Positions 6,080 to 14,448 of a stretch of 43,815 bases of DNA are shown piece by piece (position 1 is the stretch's first letter; the number at the start of each line of letters is the position of its first letter). A program made the translations under genes and the position numbers. The notes under the pieces were generated by a model. It made no database searches. It was not told the origin of the DNA and saw only the letters and a program-made list of their open reading frames with translations. This stretch comes from Desulfobacterales bacterium GWB2_56_26 (GTDB lineage Bacteria > Desulfobacterota > Desulfobulbia > Desulfobulbales > Desulfocapsaceae): NCBI GenBank assembly GCA_001799365.1, contig MGTI01000014.1, positions 1-43,815 on the forward strand, read 5' to 3'.

Positions 6080-9000
6080 ATGCACAAGGATGTCGAGCAT
6101 TCGCTGGGAATATGTCTTGGTGCTTCAACTGTGTCGCTCGTCGAGGTTGAACGGCGGGCGGGAACACCGCCCGTAATCGTCAAACATGCTGCAAAGGCTC
6201 ATCAGGGCAGCGTCCGGGACTGTCTCGATGCCCTGCTGCAGGAAACCGGCAACCTGACCGAAAAAAAGCTCTGTGTCACCGGCCGCAACTTCCGTCACTC
6301 CCTCAATCTCTCCTCCATCTCCGAACCCGAAGCGACCGAACTCGCAGTCGGGCATATCCTGCCCGCGGATCATCCCTACCGGTTGGTAATTTCGGCCGGA
6401 GGTGAAACCTTTCTGGTTTACCACCTCGACGACCTGAACTGTATCGGCAACATCCACACCGGCAACAAATGCGCGGCCGGCACCGGCGATTTCTTTCTGC
6501 AGCAGCTGCGCCGGATGGATATTCCGCTGGCCGAGGCCACTGCAATGGAGCTGCCGGAAAAATCGTTCAGGATATCCGGGCGATGCTCAGTTTTCTGCAA
6601 GAGTGACTGCACCCACGCCCTCAACAAAGGGGTGGCAAAAAACGCGGTGGTCGCCGGGCTGACCAGCATGATGGCAGATAAACTGTTGGAGCTCATAAAA
6701 GATTTCGACATCGGTCACGTTCTGCTGGTCGGCGGCTGCGCCGGCAATACAGGCATGGTCCATTACCTCCGGCAAAAGATCGGCAATCTCTATATTCCCG
6801 CCGAAGCCGCCTATTTCGAGGCGCTCGGCGCGGCGCTCTGGGCGCTGGACCATGCTCCGCGTCCCTACCCCGGACGGGACCGACTCTTCTGCGACAACGC
6901 CTGCAATTTTTCTTTCCACAAGCCGCTCACCGCCTTCCGGCATCTGGTGCATTACAAAAACAGGCCGCACGGCAAGGCTGAAGCAGGCGACCATACGATC
7001 CTCGGCCTGGACGTCGGCTCCACCACCACCAAGGGCGTACTGCTGCGGCGCAACGACAAGGAGGTTCTCGCCTCCGCCTATCTGCGCACGAACGGCGATC
7101 CGGTGGGTGCCGCAAGAAATGTCTATCGGTCCCTCTGGGATCAACTGAGTGTGCCGGTTGTCATCGAGGCGGTCGGCGTGACCGGTTCCGGCCGCCAGAT
7201 TGCCGGCCTCCATGCCATGACCCCCGGCGTCGTCAATGAAATCATTGCCCACGCCACGGCCGCCGCCTTCTACGACCCGGAGGTCGATACCATTCTCGAA
7301 CTCGGCGGACAGGATGCCAAGTACACCTATCTCGCCAACGGCGTCCCCAACGATTATGCCATGAACGAGGCCTGCAGTGCCGGGACCGGCTCCTTCCTGG
7401 AAGAATCGGCCAGGGAAAGCCTGGGGCTTGAGGTGAGCGACATCGGCAACATGGCCTTCCTTGGTGAAAAACCGCCCAATTTCAGCGACCAATGCGCCGC
7501 CTTCATCAGCTCGGACATAAAAAACGGCGTGCAGCAGCGGATCTCGACCGAAAATATCGTCGCCGGCCTGGTTTACTCCGTGGCCCTCAACTTTATCAAC
7601 CGGGTCAAGGGCAATCGGCCGGTGGGTCAAAAAATCTTTATCCAGGGCGGCGTCTGTTACAACCAGGCAGTGCCCGTGGCCATGGCCGCCCTCACCGGCA
7701 AGGAAGTGATCGTCCCGCCCGATCCAGGCCTGATCGGGGCCTTCGGGGTCGCGCTTGAAGTCGAAAAGCGGCTCGAACAGGGGCTCATCCAACCGGCAGT
7801 CTTCGACCTCGAAGTACTGGCCACACGCGAGGTCGGCTACGAAAAACCCTTTATCTGCGGCGGCGGCAAGGAAAAATGCGACCGGAAGTGCGAGATCGCG
7901 CGGATTACCCTGGCCGGCAAAACCTATCCCTTCGGCGGCATCTGCAACCGCTACGACAACATGCTCCGCAACGCCGACATCGACAGCAGCGGCTGCAATC
8001 TGGTCGCCGCCCGCCAGAATTTGATTTTTGCCGGGGAAGAGTCGGAGACAGAGCACGCTCGCCCCACCGTCCGCATGAATCGGTCGTTTTTGATCAACAC
8101 CTATTATCCCTTTTACCGGCGCTATCTTGAGGAACTTGGCATGAACCTCATCCTGCCGAAGAGCGTATCCCCCGCCGGCATCGCCCGGCGGGGCGCCCAG
8201 TTCTGTTATCCGGCCGAACTCGCCCACGGCTATCTCGCGGACATGCTCGAACTTGCGGCCGATTTCACCCTGCTGCCCCACATCATAGGCATTCCCTCCG
8301 GCAACGGCGAGATGTCCTGCACCTGCGTCTTTGTCCAGAGCGAACCTTTTTACCTGAGAAGCGCCTTCCGGGAACTGGAGACTCCCGCCACGCTGTCGCC
8401 GACCCTCGATTTTTCCGCAGGTTTTCATGACCAGCAACGGGTGTTCGGGGAACTGACCGTAAAGCTCGGTCGAACCGCTCCCCAAGGCCGAAAAGCCTTT
8501 GCCTGCGCGCATGAGGAACAGACCAAATGCCGACGGCAGCTGAAGGAAATCGGCCAAAAATTCCTGACCGACCTCGAAAAGAGCCCGGACCGGTTCGCCG
8601 TGGTCCTTTTCGGCAGGCCGTACAACAGCTTCACCGACATCGCCAACAAAGGCATTGCAATGAAGTTTGCCACCCGGGGCGTGCCGATCGTCCCCTTCGA
8701 TCTCTTACCCTTTGAGGATCAAAACCTGGACGAGGAGATCAACATGTATTGGGCCATGGGCGATAGCCTGCTCCGCTGCGCCCGGTTCGTCGCGGGACAC
8801 CCGCAGCTCTTTGCCGCCTATATCACCAATTTTTCCTGCGGACCGGATTCCTTCATCATCACCTATTTCCGCGACACCATGGGCGCAAAACCGAGCCTCA
8901 CCCTGGAACTCGACAGCCACACTGCCGATGCCGGACTGGAAACGCGGATCGAGGCCTTCCTCGATATTGTCGGCACCTGCCGCAAACTGGGAAAATCGTT

Positions 9001-10360
9001 TGTAAAAGCCTACAAGGACAAGGGTACGACCGCCGCCATGGAGTATAAACCCGGAGGCGCAGCCATCCGTACCGCAGGCGGGGAACGGGTCGGACTTACC
9101 GACAAAAGGGTGAAGCTGCTGGTGCCGGCCATGGGCAAATTCGGCACGCCGCTTTTGGCCGATGCTTTCGCCGGTTGCGGCATCCGGACCGAACAACTGC
9201 CGCCGGCCGATACCGAAAGCCTCAAGCTGGGCCGGGGCCATTCCAGCTGCAAGGAATGTTTGCCGCTGCAGACGACGCTGGGCACCGTTCTCCACTATCT
9301 GCAGAAAGACCGGCCCGAGGGCCAGATTACCGCCTATCTCATGCCCAACGCCGACGGACCGTGCCGGTTCGGCCAGTACAACGTTCTGACCAGAAGGCTC
9401 ATCGCCCGCCAGAACATTGCCGATACGGCGGTGTTTTCGCCTTCGACCGAGAACTGCTACGGCGGCCTGGGCACCAAATTCCAGATCGCCGCCTGGCGGG
9501 CAATCGTCACCGGCGATGTATTCGATGAAATGTGGTCCACCATCCTGACTGCGGCAGCTGATAAAGAGGCGGCCCTTACGCTGCTGGATGAACGCCACCG
9601 GGCGCTGCGCCGGGTCATCGCCGGAGACTGGCGAACCCTGGCCCGTGAGCTTAAAAGAAGCGCCGGAAAGCTGGCCGCAATTGTTCTGACCAAGGATTAT
9701 CGGACCATTCCCAAGATATCTCTTGCGGGAGAAATCTATGTCCGCCACGATCCCCTCTCCCTGCAGATGCTGGTGGAGAGATTGGCTGCGCGCGGGTTCA
9801 TCGTCCGGACAGCGCAGAACAGCGAATGGTTCAAATATGTAGACTGGCTGATCGAAAACGGCCTTCATGGCAAAAATTCCATCAATTTCCGTATAGTTAA
9901 CTGGATAAAAGGGCGAATCGACCGGCAGATCCGCGAGCTTTTGGCCCCTGCCGGACTCTTCTACCACGGCGATATGCGGGTCGGGCCGGTGGTCGGGCTC
10001 GGCGCCCGCTTTCTTTCGCCGGAGGTCCAGGGCGAGGCCATTCTCACCATCGGCTCGGCCTTTCACGACATTCTCAATCCCGCCTGCGGGATCATCTCCA
10101 TCGGCCCCTTCGGCTGCATGCCGAGCCGGGTAGCGGAAGCGATACTGCAGCAACGGTTTACCGCCGGGGAGAAAAAACGGATGAACGGTCACGCCGGTTC
10201 CCCCATCCTTAAAAACGGCGAGCGGAAATTCCCCTTTCTGGCCATCGAAACCGACGGCGCTCCCTTCCCGCAGATCATAGAGGCTCGGCTGGAGGCCTTC
10301 TGCCTGCAGGCGGAACGGCTGCACCGCGAGATGCTTGCCGGATCGCCGGATTATTGTTGA
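6080..10360 (+). CDS. Large acyl-CoA dehydratase activase fusion (two BadF/BcrA-type ASKHA ATPase domains, DUF2229, HgdB-like C-terminal part)
   Basis: Two HgdC-like cores: NKCAAGTGDFFLQQ...GRCSVFCKSD and LGLDVGSTTTKGVLL...ELGGQDAKYTYL...NEACSAGTGSFLEE; DUF2229-like FICGGGKEKCDRKCEIARI; C-terminal KECLPLQTTLG...GPCRFGQY. Confidence 0.92.
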   Translation: MHKDVEHSLGICLGASTVSLVEVERRAGTPPVIVKHAAKAHQGSVRDCLDALLQETGNLTEKKLCVTGRNFRHSLNLSSISEPEATELAVGHILPADHPYRLVISAGGETFLVYHLDDLNCIGNIHTGNKCAAGTGDFFLQQLRRMDIPLAEATAMELPEKSFRISGRCSVFCKSDCTHALNKGVAKNAVVAGLTSMMADKLLELIKDFDIGHVLLVGGCAGNTGMVHYLRQKIGNLYIPAEAAYFEALGAALWALDHAPRPYPGRDRLFCDNACNFSFHKPLTAFRHLVHYKNRPHGKAEAGDHTILGLDVGSTTTKGVLLRRNDKEVLASAYLRTNGDPVGAARNVYRSLWDQLSVPVVIEAVGVTGSGRQIAGLHAMTPGVVNEIIAHATAAAFYDPEVDTILELGGQDAKYTYLANGVPNDYAMNEACSAGTGSFLEESARESLGLEVSDIGNMAFLGEKPPNFSDQCAAFISSDIKNGVQQRISTENIVAGLVYSVALNFINRVKGNRPVGQKIFIQGGVCYNQAVPVAMAALTGKEVIVPPDPGLIGAFGVALEVEKRLEQGLIQPAVFDLEVLATREVGYEKPFICGGGKEKCDRKCEIARITLAGKTYPFGGICNRYDNMLRNADIDSSGCNLVAARQNLIFAGEESETEHARPTVRMNRSFLINTYYPFYRRYLEELGMNLILPKSVSPAGIARRGAQFCYPAELAHGYLADMLELAADFTLLPHIIGIPSGNGEMSCTCVFVQSEPFYLRSAFRELETPATLSPTLDFSAGFHDQQRVFGELTVKLGRTAPQGRKAFACAHEEQTKCRRQLKEIGQKFLTDLEKSPDRFAVVLFGRPYNSFTDIANKGIAMKFATRGVPIVPFDLLPFEDQNLDEEINMYWAMGDSLLRCARFVAGHPQLFAAYITNFSCGPDSFIITYFRDTMGAKPSLTLELDSHTADAGLETRIEAFLDIVGTCRKLGKSFVKAYKDKGTTAAMEYKPGGAAIRTAGGERVGLTDKRVKLLVPAMGKFGTPLLADAFAGCGIRTEQLPPADTESLKLGRGHSSCKECLPLQTTLGTVLHYLQKDRPEGQITAYLMPNADGPCRFGQYNVLTRRLIARQNIADTAVFSPSTENCYGGLGTKFQIAAWRAIVTGDVFDEMWSTILTAAADKEAALTLLDERHRALRRVIAGDWRTLARELKRSAGKLAAIVLTKDYRTIPKISLAGEIYVRHDPLSLQMLVERLAARGFIVRTAQNSEWFKYVDWLIENGLHGKNSINFRIVNWIKGRIDRQIRELLAPAGLFYHGDMRVGPVVGLGARFLSPEVQGEAILTIGSAFHDILNPACGIISIGPFGCMPSRVAEAILQQRFTAGEKKRMNGHAGSPILKNGERKFPFLAIETDGAPFPQIIEARLEAFCLQAERLHREMLAGSPDYC

Positions 10361-10443: not shown

Positions 10444-11769
10444 ATGCCTACCACCACAGCATCGGACAGTGTCAAAAAAAAACGTGTCTCCTCTGGCATT
10501 CCCGAACTCGACAGGCTACTCGGCGATCTGTTCATCGGCGACAACGTCCTCTGGTACGAAGACGCCGGCAGCTTTTCCGCGATCTTCTGCCTGAAATTCA
10601 TCCGGGAGACGCTGGCCCGCAAAAAACCGCTGATCTATGTCACCTTCGATCGGTCCCCGAAAAACGTGGTGTCCTTTTTGGGGACGCTCGCCGAGAGCCA
10701 GAACCTGACCATTCTCGACTGCTTCACCAACGGCAAGGGCGACCGGTCCGAGGTTTTCAACAAATTCTATGAGAAGGACGGCGCCCTGTGGCCCTACCAG
10801 GTGATCAAGCTGAACGACCCGTCCAATCCCGGCCATGTCGGCGAGGCGATCTACGGTCTGCACAGCAATCTGTCGGGAGACGTTCATTTCATTCTCGACA
10901 GCCTGACCGGCATGCAGGCCCTCTGGGGCGGCGAGGAGCAGGTGCTGCAGTTCTACGCCAGGACCTGTCCCCGCCTCTACGAACTGGAGACCATTGCCTA
11001 CTGGCTCATTGAAAAAGGCGCGCACTCCAACCGGCTCAAGGCCAATATCAACAAGATCGCCCAGGTGGCGATCGACCTGTCGGTGCGCCGCGGCAAGTCG
11101 ATGCTGAAGATCGTCAAGGCGGAGAAGCGGAATTCGAAATTCTTGAACGAACAGCACGAGTATGCCTGCGAGGATTCCGACATCGTCTTCGAAAGCCAGC
11201 GTCAGGAGAAAGGAAAATTCGATCTCGGGGCAAAGATCAAGAGTTTCAGGCTGTTGCGGGGACTCAGTCAGAAGCGTCTTGCCGACCTGACCGGGGTGAC
11301 CCCGAGCACCATATCCCAGGTGGAAAAAAACCTGATCTACCCCTCGCTGCCGGCGTTGTTCCGGATCGCCGAAAGCCTTGCCATCGACATGGCCACCTTC
11401 TTCAAGGAACACGGGTTGACTAAAAATTCCCTCGTCCATCCCGTCGACAAACGGTCACCCCTGCCGCTCGACAAGATTACCAAGGACAAGGCGACGGCCG
11501 AACTGCTGATGCCGCCGGATCTGGCCACCGGGTTGCAGGCGGCGATTGTCAGAATCCGGCCCGGCAAAAAACTCGTCGGTCATTTCGTGGTTCACAAGGG
11601 TGAGGAGTTCGGGTATCTCCTCACCGGACGGCTGGAAATGACCATAGACAACGAATCATACGAGGTAAATCCGGGCGACGCCGTGTTCCTGCCGAAGGAT
11701 ACTCCCGGCGGGTGGCGCAATACCGGCGAGGCCGTGGCCGATCTGCTCTGGATAACGGTACGGGGATAA
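10444..11769 (+). CDS. KaiC/RecA-like (degenerate) domain - XRE HTH - cupin fusion regulator
   Basis: N-term SSGIPELDRLLGDLFIGDNVLWYEDAGSFSAIFCLKFI (KaiC-like, no GKT); HTH KIKSFRLLRGLSQKRLADLTGVTPSTISQVEKNLIYPSLPALFRIAESLAI; cupin GKKLVGHFVVHKGEEFGYLLTGRLEMTIDNESYEVNPGDAVFLPKDTPGGWRNTGE. Confidence 0.88.
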   Translation: MPTTTASDSVKKKRVSSGIPELDRLLGDLFIGDNVLWYEDAGSFSAIFCLKFIRETLARKKPLIYVTFDRSPKNVVSFLGTLAESQNLTILDCFTNGKGDRSEVFNKFYEKDGALWPYQVIKLNDPSNPGHVGEAIYGLHSNLSGDVHFILDSLTGMQALWGGEEQVLQFYARTCPRLYELETIAYWLIEKGAHSNRLKANINKIAQVAIDLSVRRGKSMLKIVKAEKRNSKFLNEQHEYACEDSDIVFESQRQEKGKFDLGAKIKSFRLLRGLSQKRLADLTGVTPSTISQVEKNLIYPSLPALFRIAESLAIDMATFFKEHGLTKNSLVHPVDKRSPLPLDKITKDKATAELLMPPDLATGLQAAIVRIRPGKKLVGHFVVHKGEEFGYLLTGRLEMTIDNESYEVNPGDAVFLPKDTPGGWRNTGEAVADLLWITVRG

Positions 11770-11867: not shown

Positions 11868-13505
11868 TCAGGCCAGCAGAATCGCTCGCGCGCTTTCGTT
11901 CTTGGCGTCGGTGATGTGAGTTATCCCCGTCTCGCGGGCGGTCTCGCGGTTCGCCGCATAAATATCCTCCCGGCTGATCTGGGAAACCTTGAACTTGCGG
12001 GCACCGGCCAGCAACTGCTGGATGCCGCAGGCAAGTTTGTCGGCCATGGTCCACATGGCGATCGCCCCGTACGGAATGTTGCGCATCTCGTCTTTCCCCA
12101 CTTTTTTCTGTACATCGAAATAGGAGGCGAAGATCTCCTCCGGCGTGGTGCCGATTTCAGTGACCGACTTCGGCAGGCTGTCCCAGTTGCCGTTGATCGT
12201 TTCCTTCCGGTCCGGATTGATGACACCCTCGATATTGGCGCCGAGGAAACCGGGGATCATGATGCCCCGGCCCATGCAGATCATCTTGACAAACGGCGCC
12301 CCGAGCGCGAGGCCCTTGAAGATGCTGTCTTCCAGAGCAAAACCGCCGGCAAAGGAGAGATCGACGACCTTTTGCCCGCGGCTAGCCAGGAGGCTCGCGT
12401 ATTCGTAGGCTTTGGCGTGGAGGTTGATGGACGGTACGCCCCAGCTCTGCATCATGTTCCACGGGCTCATGCCCGTGCCGCCGCCGGAACCGTCGATGGT
12501 GAGGAGGTCGAGCCCGGCGTCGGAGGCGAATTTGATCGCCATGGCCAGCTCTTCCATGCCGTAGGAACCGGTCTTCAACGAAATCCGGTCAAAGCCGAGG
12601 CTGCGCAGGTAATCGACCGACTTCATGAAATCTTCCCGGACCAGGGCCACGGTATCAAGATGGGTGCCGCCGAGACGGCTGTGCCGGGCAAAGGATTTGA
12701 TCGCCCCCTTGGCAAAGGCTTCCTGCACCTCGGGCAAGGCAGGATTTGGGTCGACCACGTAGCCGCGCTCCTTGAGGAACAGGGCGTAATCGAGGCTCGT
12801 CACCTGGATCTCGCCGCCGATGTTTTTCGCCCCTTGGCCCCATTTCAGCTCGATTATGCATTTGTTGCCGTACTTTTCGGCAACATATTCGGCAACCCCG
12901 TTGCGGGTGTCCTCGACATTCAACTGGACGATGATGGCGCCATGCCCGTCATAGTAGCGGAGATACACATCGATCCGGCGATCGAGTTCAGGGGAGATTT
13001 TGATGCGGCCGCCGCCCATGGTCGATTCTTTGTCGACACCGACGACATTCTCGCCGATGACGATGGGGATGCCGGTCAGCGCGCAGCCGACGGCGAAGGA
13101 ATTCCAGTACTTGGCGGCAATAAAGGTCGAGCCGAGGGCGCCGGTCATCAACGGCAGGCGGGATTTGGTCTTTATCTTATTTCCGAATTCGGTGGATAGA
13201 TCGACATTGGGGAAAATACAGTCGTCGGCATTGGAAGTGAGCCCATCGCTCAAGCCCACCGAGCCGTATGCATACCCTTGGATTCGCAAAGAGTTGTAGG
13301 ACACCCCGACATGGGTGGTGTTGTTGGCCCCCGCCGTTACCAGGCCGAAGTCGCGGGGATAAAGGAGTTTCCGCCCGACGAGGCTCGATTTCCAGGTCTC
13401 GCATTTGCCGGTGCAGTCGGCCCGGCACAGGGTGCACAATCCCGATTCCGCTGGATTTCCACGATTGGCAGTTCCCAAGACATCGTTCAGTTTTTCAAAA
13501 CGCAT
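11868..13505 (-). CDS. FMN-binding glutamate synthase (GltB2-type) domain protein
   Basis: LLTIDGSGGGTGMSPWNMMQSWGVPS, GGFALEDSIFKGLALGAPFVKMICMGRG; N-terminal Cys cluster CTLCRADCTGKCETW. Confidence 0.9.
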   Translation of the reverse strand: MRFEKLNDVLGTANRGNPAESGLCTLCRADCTGKCETWKSSLVGRKLLYPRDFGLVTAGANNTTHVGVSYNSLRIQGYAYGSVGLSDGLTSNADDCIFPNVDLSTEFGNKIKTKSRLPLMTGALGSTFIAAKYWNSFAVGCALTGIPIVIGENVVGVDKESTMGGGRIKISPELDRRIDVYLRYYDGHGAIIVQLNVEDTRNGVAEYVAEKYGNKCIIELKWGQGAKNIGGEIQVTSLDYALFLKERGYVVDPNPALPEVQEAFAKGAIKSFARHSRLGGTHLDTVALVREDFMKSVDYLRSLGFDRISLKTGSYGMEELAMAIKFASDAGLDLLTIDGSGGGTGMSPWNMMQSWGVPSINLHAKAYEYASLLASRGQKVVDLSFAGGFALEDSIFKGLALGAPFVKMICMGRGIMIPGFLGANIEGVINPDRKETINGNWDSLPKSVTEIGTTPEEIFASYFDVQKKVGKDEMRNIPYGAIAMWTMADKLACGIQQLLAGARKFKVSQISREDIYAANRETARETGITHITDAKNESARAILLA

Positions 13506-13550
13506 TGCAATCTCCTTTCGGATTTCCCTGTGGGAGCTGCCGTCCAAATA

Positions 13551-13590
13551 AAAAAGGCATCTGCCTCACAGAGAGGAAACAGACGCCTTT
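13551..13590 (-). terminator. Intrinsic terminator in the leader of the glutamate synthase-like gene
   Basis: RNA sense: AAGGC-GTCTG-ttt-CCTC-TCTGT-GAGG-CAGAT-GCCTTTTTT; strong stem plus U-tract, upstream of the start codon. Confidence 0.85.
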
Positions 13591-13602
13591 GTCCAGTGTT
13601 TC
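13576..13602 (-). promoter_or_regulatory. ANTAR-type hairpin P2 (hexaloop AAAGGC), antiterminator
   Basis: RNA sense: GAAACA-ctg-GAC-[AAAGGC]-GTC-TGTTTC; loop A1 and G4; sequesters the 5' arm of the terminator. Confidence 0.8.
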
Positions 13603-13608
13603 TACGTG

Positions 13609-13626
13609 CCCCACGCCATTGTGAGG
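13609..13626 (-). promoter_or_regulatory. ANTAR-type hairpin P1 (hexaloop AATGGC)
   Basis: RNA sense: CCTCAC-[AATGGC]-GTGGGG (6 bp, one G-U); outer CTAC/GTAG extends it to 13602..13633. Confidence 0.8.
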
Positions 13627-13657
13627 ATTGTAGTTATGTATTAGTACGTTTTATTAG

Positions 13658-13680
13658 CTTGACTAAATTATCTTGTCAAG
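13658..13680 (-). promoter_or_regulatory. Inverted repeat with embedded TTGACA, candidate promoter/operator
   Basis: CTTGAC-N11-GTCAAG in the 230-nt gap between the ANTAR gene and the gltB-like gene. Confidence 0.45.
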
Positions 13681-13737
13681 ACAAAAATACAATGCTCGTG
13701 CTTTATCCGGAAACAACGGGTTCCGAAAAGACATTGT

Positions 13738-14448
13738 CTACAGTTCGTCGGAAAGCACGATGGCTTCGGCCACATCCTGCATCGACTTCCGGGTATCCAT
13801 GCTCCGTTTCTGGATCCAGCGATAGGCATCCTCGCCGCTCATCTGCCGCCTGTGCATGAGGATCTCCTTGGCACGCTCGATGACCTTGCGGGATTTAAGT
13901 TCCTGTTCGATGACGCGGGTCCTGATGATCAGTTCGGTGTTGTGAATGGCAACCGCCGCCTGGCTCGCCACCGCGGTCAGCATATTGATATCGGTCTCCG
14001 AAAAGACATGGGGCTTGGCGGTAAAACAGTTGAGGACGCCCATGACCTTGTCTTCCCTGCCCATGAGGGGGACACCGACCATGGACACCAGGCCTAACTT
14101 GGCGGCCATTTCCTTTTCCTTGAATCGCTCGTTGGCCAGCACATTGTCGATCACCAGCGGCCGCTGGGTCGAGGCCACGTAGCCGACCACCCCTTCGTGC
14201 ATCCGCAGCACCCGGTCCTTGACATATTCGCGATCGATGGCCTGGGTCGCCTTCAACCTGATCACCGGCGGATTTTCAGTTTCATCGACCAGCCACAGGG
14301 AACAGATTTCAACGCCCGTCACCCTGGCGGTTACCATGACGATAAGCTTGAAGAGATCCTCAAGAAAGAGCTCCGAGGTGATCGCCTGCCCGATATCCAT
14401 CAGCGCCTTGATGTAGCGGTCGTAGGTATGTTGAGGAGATTTTTCCAT
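13738..14448 (-). CDS. GAF-ANTAR domain transcription antiterminator
   Basis: GAF domain (VVGYVASTQRPLVIDNVLANERFKEK...LVSMVGVPLMGREDKVMGVLNCF) and C-terminal ANTAR (RKVIERAKEILMHRRQMSGEDAYRWIQKRSMDTRKSMQDVAEAIV). Confidence 0.93.
   Translation of the reverse strand: MEKSPQHTYDRYIKALMDIGQAITSELFLEDLFKLIVMVTARVTGVEICSLWLVDETENPPVIRLKATQAIDREYVKDRVLRMHEGVVGYVASTQRPLVIDNVLANERFKEKEMAAKLGLVSMVGVPLMGREDKVMGVLNCFTAKPHVFSETDINMLTAVASQAAVAIHNTELIIRTRVIEQELKSRKVIERAKEILMHRRQMSGEDAYRWIQKRSMDTRKSMQDVAEAIVLSDEL

Follow-up and report, generated by a model that had tools for sequence, protein, structure and literature searches.

The described systems that come closest to the module reported here are EutV/EutW with the eutP-type leaders of Enterococcus faecalis, NasR with the nasF leader of Klebsiella oxytoca, PAL of Nakamurella multipartita and the regulons predicted for Desulfotomaculum reducens and Pelobacter carbinolicus. 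The dual hexaloop was defined by Ramesh et al. 2012 (PMC3369931), who also demonstrated for EutV the need for an A at position 1 and a G at position 4 of the loops (A1/G4). In the E. faecalis eut leaders the linker between the two hairpins is 5-12 nt, and a linker of 14 nt impaired induction (PMC3369931). The same study predicted ANTAR RNAs for glutamate synthase genes in D. reducens and for nitrogenase genes in P. carbinolicus. The EutV residues that contact the RNA have been defined from a EutV-RNA structure, in which Y164 stacks on G4 (PMC8934654). According to a paper of 2020 the characterised one-component ANTAR proteins were NasR and PAL only, and the GAF-ANTAR combination, a common architecture, was then without a worked example (PMC7496416). 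Our literature search recovered no paper on a GAF-ANTAR protein together with its RNA, nor any description of a module in which GAF-ANTAR has a single target and lies next to a PF01645-like gene.

The locus studied here, which comes from a sulfate-reducer-like bacterium, resembles the eut system in its tandem A1/G4 hexaloops (hairpins P1 and P2), in the overlap between P2 and an intrinsic terminator and in the largely conserved RNA-contact residues of the ANTAR domain. It differs in its sensor, as EutV possesses a REC domain that is phosphorylated by EutW whereas the present regulator has a GAF domain, and in its linker, which varies more and has a greater length (15 nt in this leader when measured as far as the GAC core of P2; median 19 nt and range 10-32 nt in relatives). 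With NasR it shares the one-component sensor-ANTAR design, the connection to nitrogen-metabolism genes and the putative antitermination, but NasR senses nitrate via a NIT domain. PAL is likewise a one-component sensor-ANTAR protein, but uses a PAS-LOV light sensor. The predicted regulons of D. reducens and P. carbinolicus involve the same RNA architecture before glutamate/nitrogen genes, as a prediction, and Desulfotomaculum is, unlike the present host, a Firmicute. The type of switch is known, and its presence in front of glutamate synthase genes had been predicted earlier; the module is a well-supported further case, with looser hairpin spacing and a type of sensor that still lacks a worked example. 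On computational grounds we consider it very likely that the GAF-ANTAR protein is a one-component transcription antiterminator and that the gene behind the leader is its dedicated target.

Regulator and leader RNA

The features of the module are listed in Table 1, as positions in the window, i.e. the whole stretch of 43,815 nt that was analysed. The Pfam annotation of the regulator (GAF_2, 6e-23; ANTAR, PF03861, 2.9e-20 and 72.2 bits against a curated cut-off of 27.3; no REC domain) agrees with the domain composition that had been read from the sequence originally. A second ANTAR protein was not found in the host genome, which is 89% complete, so that another target or regulator could be missing. 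EutV could be aligned without gaps on basis of PDB 6wsh, and with an offset of 2 in the numbering of the paper all listed residues match. At the positions of the RNA contacts R142, K143, K149, M172 and R175 the EutV residue is present in each of the 46 relatives (46/46); at the position of Y164, 39 of the 46 have a Tyr and 6 a Phe. Four secondary contacts are replaced in the present protein (E160 by G, R168 by Q, N173 by D and R177 by S).

Table 1. Positions of the features of the GAF-ANTAR module in the window
Feature	Position	Strand	Basis and remarks
GAF-ANTAR one-component regulator, 236 aa	13738..14448	-	GAF ~residues 29-169, ANTAR 181-231
-35 box TTGACA of leader promoter	13674..13679	-	predicted; conserved in relatives
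Probable -10 box TAATAA	13651..13656	-	17-nt spacer; weak match to consensus, position conserved
P1 hairpin CCTCAC[AATGGC]GTGGGG, recruitment hexaloop	13609..13626	-	read directly; 6-bp stem
P2 core hairpin GAC[AAAGGC]GTC, antitermination hexaloop	13582..13593	-	read directly; 3-bp stem
Intrinsic terminator AAAGGCGTCTGTTTCCTC...GAGGCAGATGCCTTTTTT	13553..13590	-	terminator scan; U tract to 13549
FMN glutamate-synthase-like protein, 545 aa	11868..13505	-	ATG at 13505 after AAAGGAG

The GAF domain is, both in PDB and in NCBIfam, nearest to that of PtsP, enzyme I of the nitrogen PTS, and resembles more weakly those of NifA and of cGMP phosphodiesterases. We infer that the domain binds a metabolite that reports nitrogen status, for instance glutamine or 2-oxoglutarate. 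Two cysteines of the domain, C49 and C141, are invariant in the 46 relatives and may possibly have a redox or metal role; C49 aligns with a Cys of PtsP GAF domains.

Within the leader, the 5' arm of the terminator starts inside the P2 loop, and the two structures are mutually exclusive in sequence. The minimum free energy structure consists of P1 and the terminator (-29.9 kcal/mol, z -2.77), and 2 of 200 shuffles folded as well. Given that the terminator (-21.5 kcal/mol) is far more stable than either the P2 core (-2.8 kcal/mol) or an extended P2 (-6.5 kcal/mol), the P2 state would need help to form. A composite scan for an A1/G4 hexaloop with a stem of at least 5, followed by a second hexaloop with a stem of at least 3 and an overlapping terminator, returned exactly one match on both strands of the window, which is the leader; the composite was absent from 40 dinucleotide-shuffled windows and from 4000 shuffles of the leader. 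The tandem A1/G4 hairpins and the overlap of P2 with the terminator arm, the core of the original prediction, are borne out by these results. The longer P2 that had been proposed, GAAACA-ctg-GAC paired with GTCTGTTTC, can indeed form here, but its lower stem is not conserved: pairing below GAC/GTC was found in only about half of the orthologs, by which we rejected a long P2 stem as a universal feature, although such pairing is still commoner than with shuffled linkers.

These features suggest the following course of events. A promoter just 3' of the regulator gene would give rise to a short leader RNA, which by default would fold into P1 and the terminator, and transcription would then end before the glutamate-synthase-like gene. 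With the GAF domain in its signalling state, an ANTAR dimer would bind the P1 hexaloop and subsequently the P2 hexaloop as it emerges; with P2 held, the 5' arm of the terminator would be sequestered and RNA polymerase would continue into the gene. The binding of ANTAR to the leader, its dimerisation and activation as the direction of control are here derived by us from sequence. Two properties count against this mechanism, namely a linker that is longer than in the E. faecalis eut leaders and the four replaced EutV contacts.

A riboswitch that senses a small molecule directly, next to an ANTAR gene that is there incidentally, would be another way to read the leader. The resemblances that could favour it are weak, sub-threshold Rfam matches (mir-633, glutamine-II and others), which we attribute to chance; a search of the window and the leader against Rfam 15 yielded no family at the gathering threshold, a conserved ligand-binding core is absent beyond the two hexaloops, and the element is co-inherited with the ANTAR gene (see below). 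We regard this reading as exceedingly improbable.

Conservation and co-inheritance of the element and the regulator

Of the 96 genomes of the kinship set, 34 contain the target gene, with weak and partial matches counted. Loss of the loop letters or of the overlap between P2 and the terminator in orthologous leaders had been named beforehand as the outcome that would speak against the switch. Both turned out to be kept: none of the 19 aligned leaders of close orthologs departs from A1 and G4 in either loop (19/19) and each retains a terminator that overlaps P2 and has a U tract, and the same holds for nearly all members of a larger set of 67 elements. The model by which this set was chosen prefers such loops, but position in front of the target gene played no part in the choice. 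In the set, A1 and G4 of loop 1 are present in 67/67, and A1 and G4 of loop 2 in 64/67 and 66/67, respectively. Three of the 67 elements precede other genes and the rest precede the orthologous gene.

The compensatory changes that were anticipated are found in P1. Within the 19 leaders double changes occur at 4 of its 6 pairs and the covariation score was reached by none of 500 shuffles; within the 67 elements 5 of 6 pairs show compensatory change. In both sets the signal exceeds that of all, or almost all, shuffled and slid controls; the relatedness of the sequences inflates the shuffle statistics, though the slid-partner controls agree. The terminator pairs of the close leaders are maintained as well (95% pairing kept, with compensating changes). 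The P2 core stem GAC/GTC is invariant (67/67), as would be expected of a stem that has a part in both structures.

A covariance model that was built from the leaders (R1, its E-values being approximate) gave strong matches (E<=1e-7, approximate) over 261 genomes of the class of the host, nearly always one per genome, which sit at the gltS-like gene wherever the position was examined. Weak extra matches in the host genome (on C253 and C152) were discarded as plain terminators without two hexaloops. Among 80 GTDB loci with the target gene, selected on protein similarity alone, the element lies directly upstream of the gene in about 70; these derive from Desulfobulbales and Desulfobacterales, with Desulforhopalus and Desulfopila as the closest named relatives. 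In a group of genomes with a 67-69% identical gene ('MIQWPK...'; L024, L022 and also L021, L025 and L026) the element is found 275-485 nt from the gene. In two of these, L024 (ATGTGTTTAGAGAAAACC...) and L022 (ATGTATCTTGGAAAAACA...), the terminator is followed by a short remnant that resembles the usual gene start, and it looks as if a relative, equipped with a ribosome binding site of its own, had taken the place of the original gene.

The strength of the terminator, its position downstream of the regulator gene and the presence elsewhere in the genome of similarly shaped plain terminators, with weak model scores, would fit a leader that is a mere terminator of the GAF-ANTAR gene, with P1 as a chance hairpin and the target under a promoter of its own. 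Yet there is covariation in P1 and the letters of the loops are fixed, copies of the element are also found in front of other operons, upstream of which no regulator gene lies, and TTGAC occurs at most 85 nt upstream of P1 in 65 of the 67 elements, mostly as TTGACA and usually with a TA-rich hexamer 17 nt further on. With a promoter between the regulator and the terminator in 65/67 loci, the terminator most plausibly belongs to the leader of the target itself, and a plain terminator is highly improbable.

Likewise very unlikely, in our estimation, is that the chief effect of the ANTAR protein on the tandem hexaloops is something other than signal-gated antitermination, be it constitutive binding, sequestration or an effect on RNA stability or translation. 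ANTAR RNAs without terminators do exist and have been proposed to act at the level of translation (PMC3369931). Against such a route stands the P2-overlapping terminator with its U tract in each of the close leaders, while the ribosome binding site of the target is situated around 30 nt downstream of the U tract, outside the ANTAR element.

In line with the adjacency noted at the outset, the gene that usually comes next upstream of the element is that for GAF-ANTAR; it was found there in 43 of the 60 element-bearing GTDB loci with enough flank. In full, the loci with at least 1.4 kb upstream comprise 43 with the element and an adjacent GAF-ANTAR gene, 17 with the element only, 6 with neither and none with GAF-ANTAR only; the 17 that lack an adjacent regulator count against the mechanism. 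In whole genomes of the order that contain the target gene, 21 have both, 1 the element only, 4 neither and none the regulator only (Fisher 3.3e-4, ignoring phylogeny). In the sole exception, G043 (99% complete), no ANTAR protein was found and P1 of the element is decayed; this case, too, counts against the mechanism, and a decayed P1 is what loss of the regulator would be expected to leave. Genus members without the target gene (G004, G011, G013 and G014) have no ANTAR protein either. Five Desulfobacterales genomes in which the element lacks a neighbouring regulator gene were searched: an ANTAR gene was located elsewhere in two, in one case around 4.6 kb from a second element, and not found in the other three, which are drafts. 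The distribution suggests that in most cases the element and the regulator are either both retained or both lost.

Target enzyme and other operons preceded by the element

The target protein had been taken for an FMN glutamate synthase-like enzyme. It does appear to be a relative of PF01645, but a distant one (E 4.1e-13, partial, with positions 188-303 of 369 matched), whereas classical GltB of the relatives scores ~1e-150 and a second, shorter homolog ~1e-60; it is at most a putative glutamate synthase. The 3Fe-4S cluster of glutamate synthase is bound by the motif CX5CX4C, which is absent from the target protein. Four N-terminal cysteines (C24, C27, C31 and C35), on the other hand, are kept without exception in 24 homologs, the most distant of which is 29% identical. 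Together this suggests that the enzyme carries an Fe-S cluster different from that of the glutamate synthases. A relative in PDB was not found by sequence, and an AlphaFold model from 7 close sequences was too poor for use (pLDDT 45). A dedicated GATase partner like that of the Desulfobacterales was not found in the host genome (89% complete).

Two neighbouring genes were recorded. Convergent to the target gene lies a gene for a KaiC-like protein with XRE HTH and cupin domains (10444-11769, + strand), which is syntenic in around 30 of the 80 GTDB loci. Beside the module, at 6080-10360 (+ strand), a 1426-aa fused acyl-CoA dehydratase activase-like protein (BadF/BcrA ATPase and DUF2229) is encoded, a homolog of which occupies the same place in L066.

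In Desulfobacterales the element is found before several other operons, which have no regulator gene upstream. It precedes glnA in L127 and L168 (L127:8324-8401), GATase-GXGXG genes followed by HdrC/B/A-like genes (L119:5502-5585, L098:4864-4953), in L166 and L174 as two tandem elements before GATase-GXGXG and HdrC/B/A-like genes, and operons that encode MvhD, MetV, MetF, two Glu_synthase proteins and a GATase (L169, L170 and L155). The occurrence before glnA and split glutamate-synthase operons makes ammonium assimilation our best guess for the regulated process. Of the nitrogen or redox metabolite that had been put forward as the signal, the nitrogen part is supported by this wider set of operons and the redox part is without direct support. 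The gene contexts suggest that in Desulfobacterales an ANTAR-run regulon for ammonium assimilation is wired to Hdr-type electron carriers.

More tentatively, and with some doubt, one may envisage a regulon that spans the Desulfobacterota, in which a GAF-ANTAR antiterminator would sense nitrogen status directly and coordinate glutamine synthetase with split glutamate synthases linked to Hdr, MvhD and MetFV; in Desulfobulbales a single regulator, a single RNA and a single gene would be what is left of it, and the RNA would tolerate a much longer hairpin spacing than EutV permits. With one regulator and one strong target RNA in the host genome, and dozens of natural variants, the module would make the sensing by GAF-ANTAR proteins and the gating of their RNA binding directly testable. 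For the organisms themselves, the data point to ammonium assimilation being controlled by ANTAR in Desulfobacterota that reduce sulfate, a control that may include operons tying glutamate synthase to electron carriers of the heterodisulfide-reductase type.
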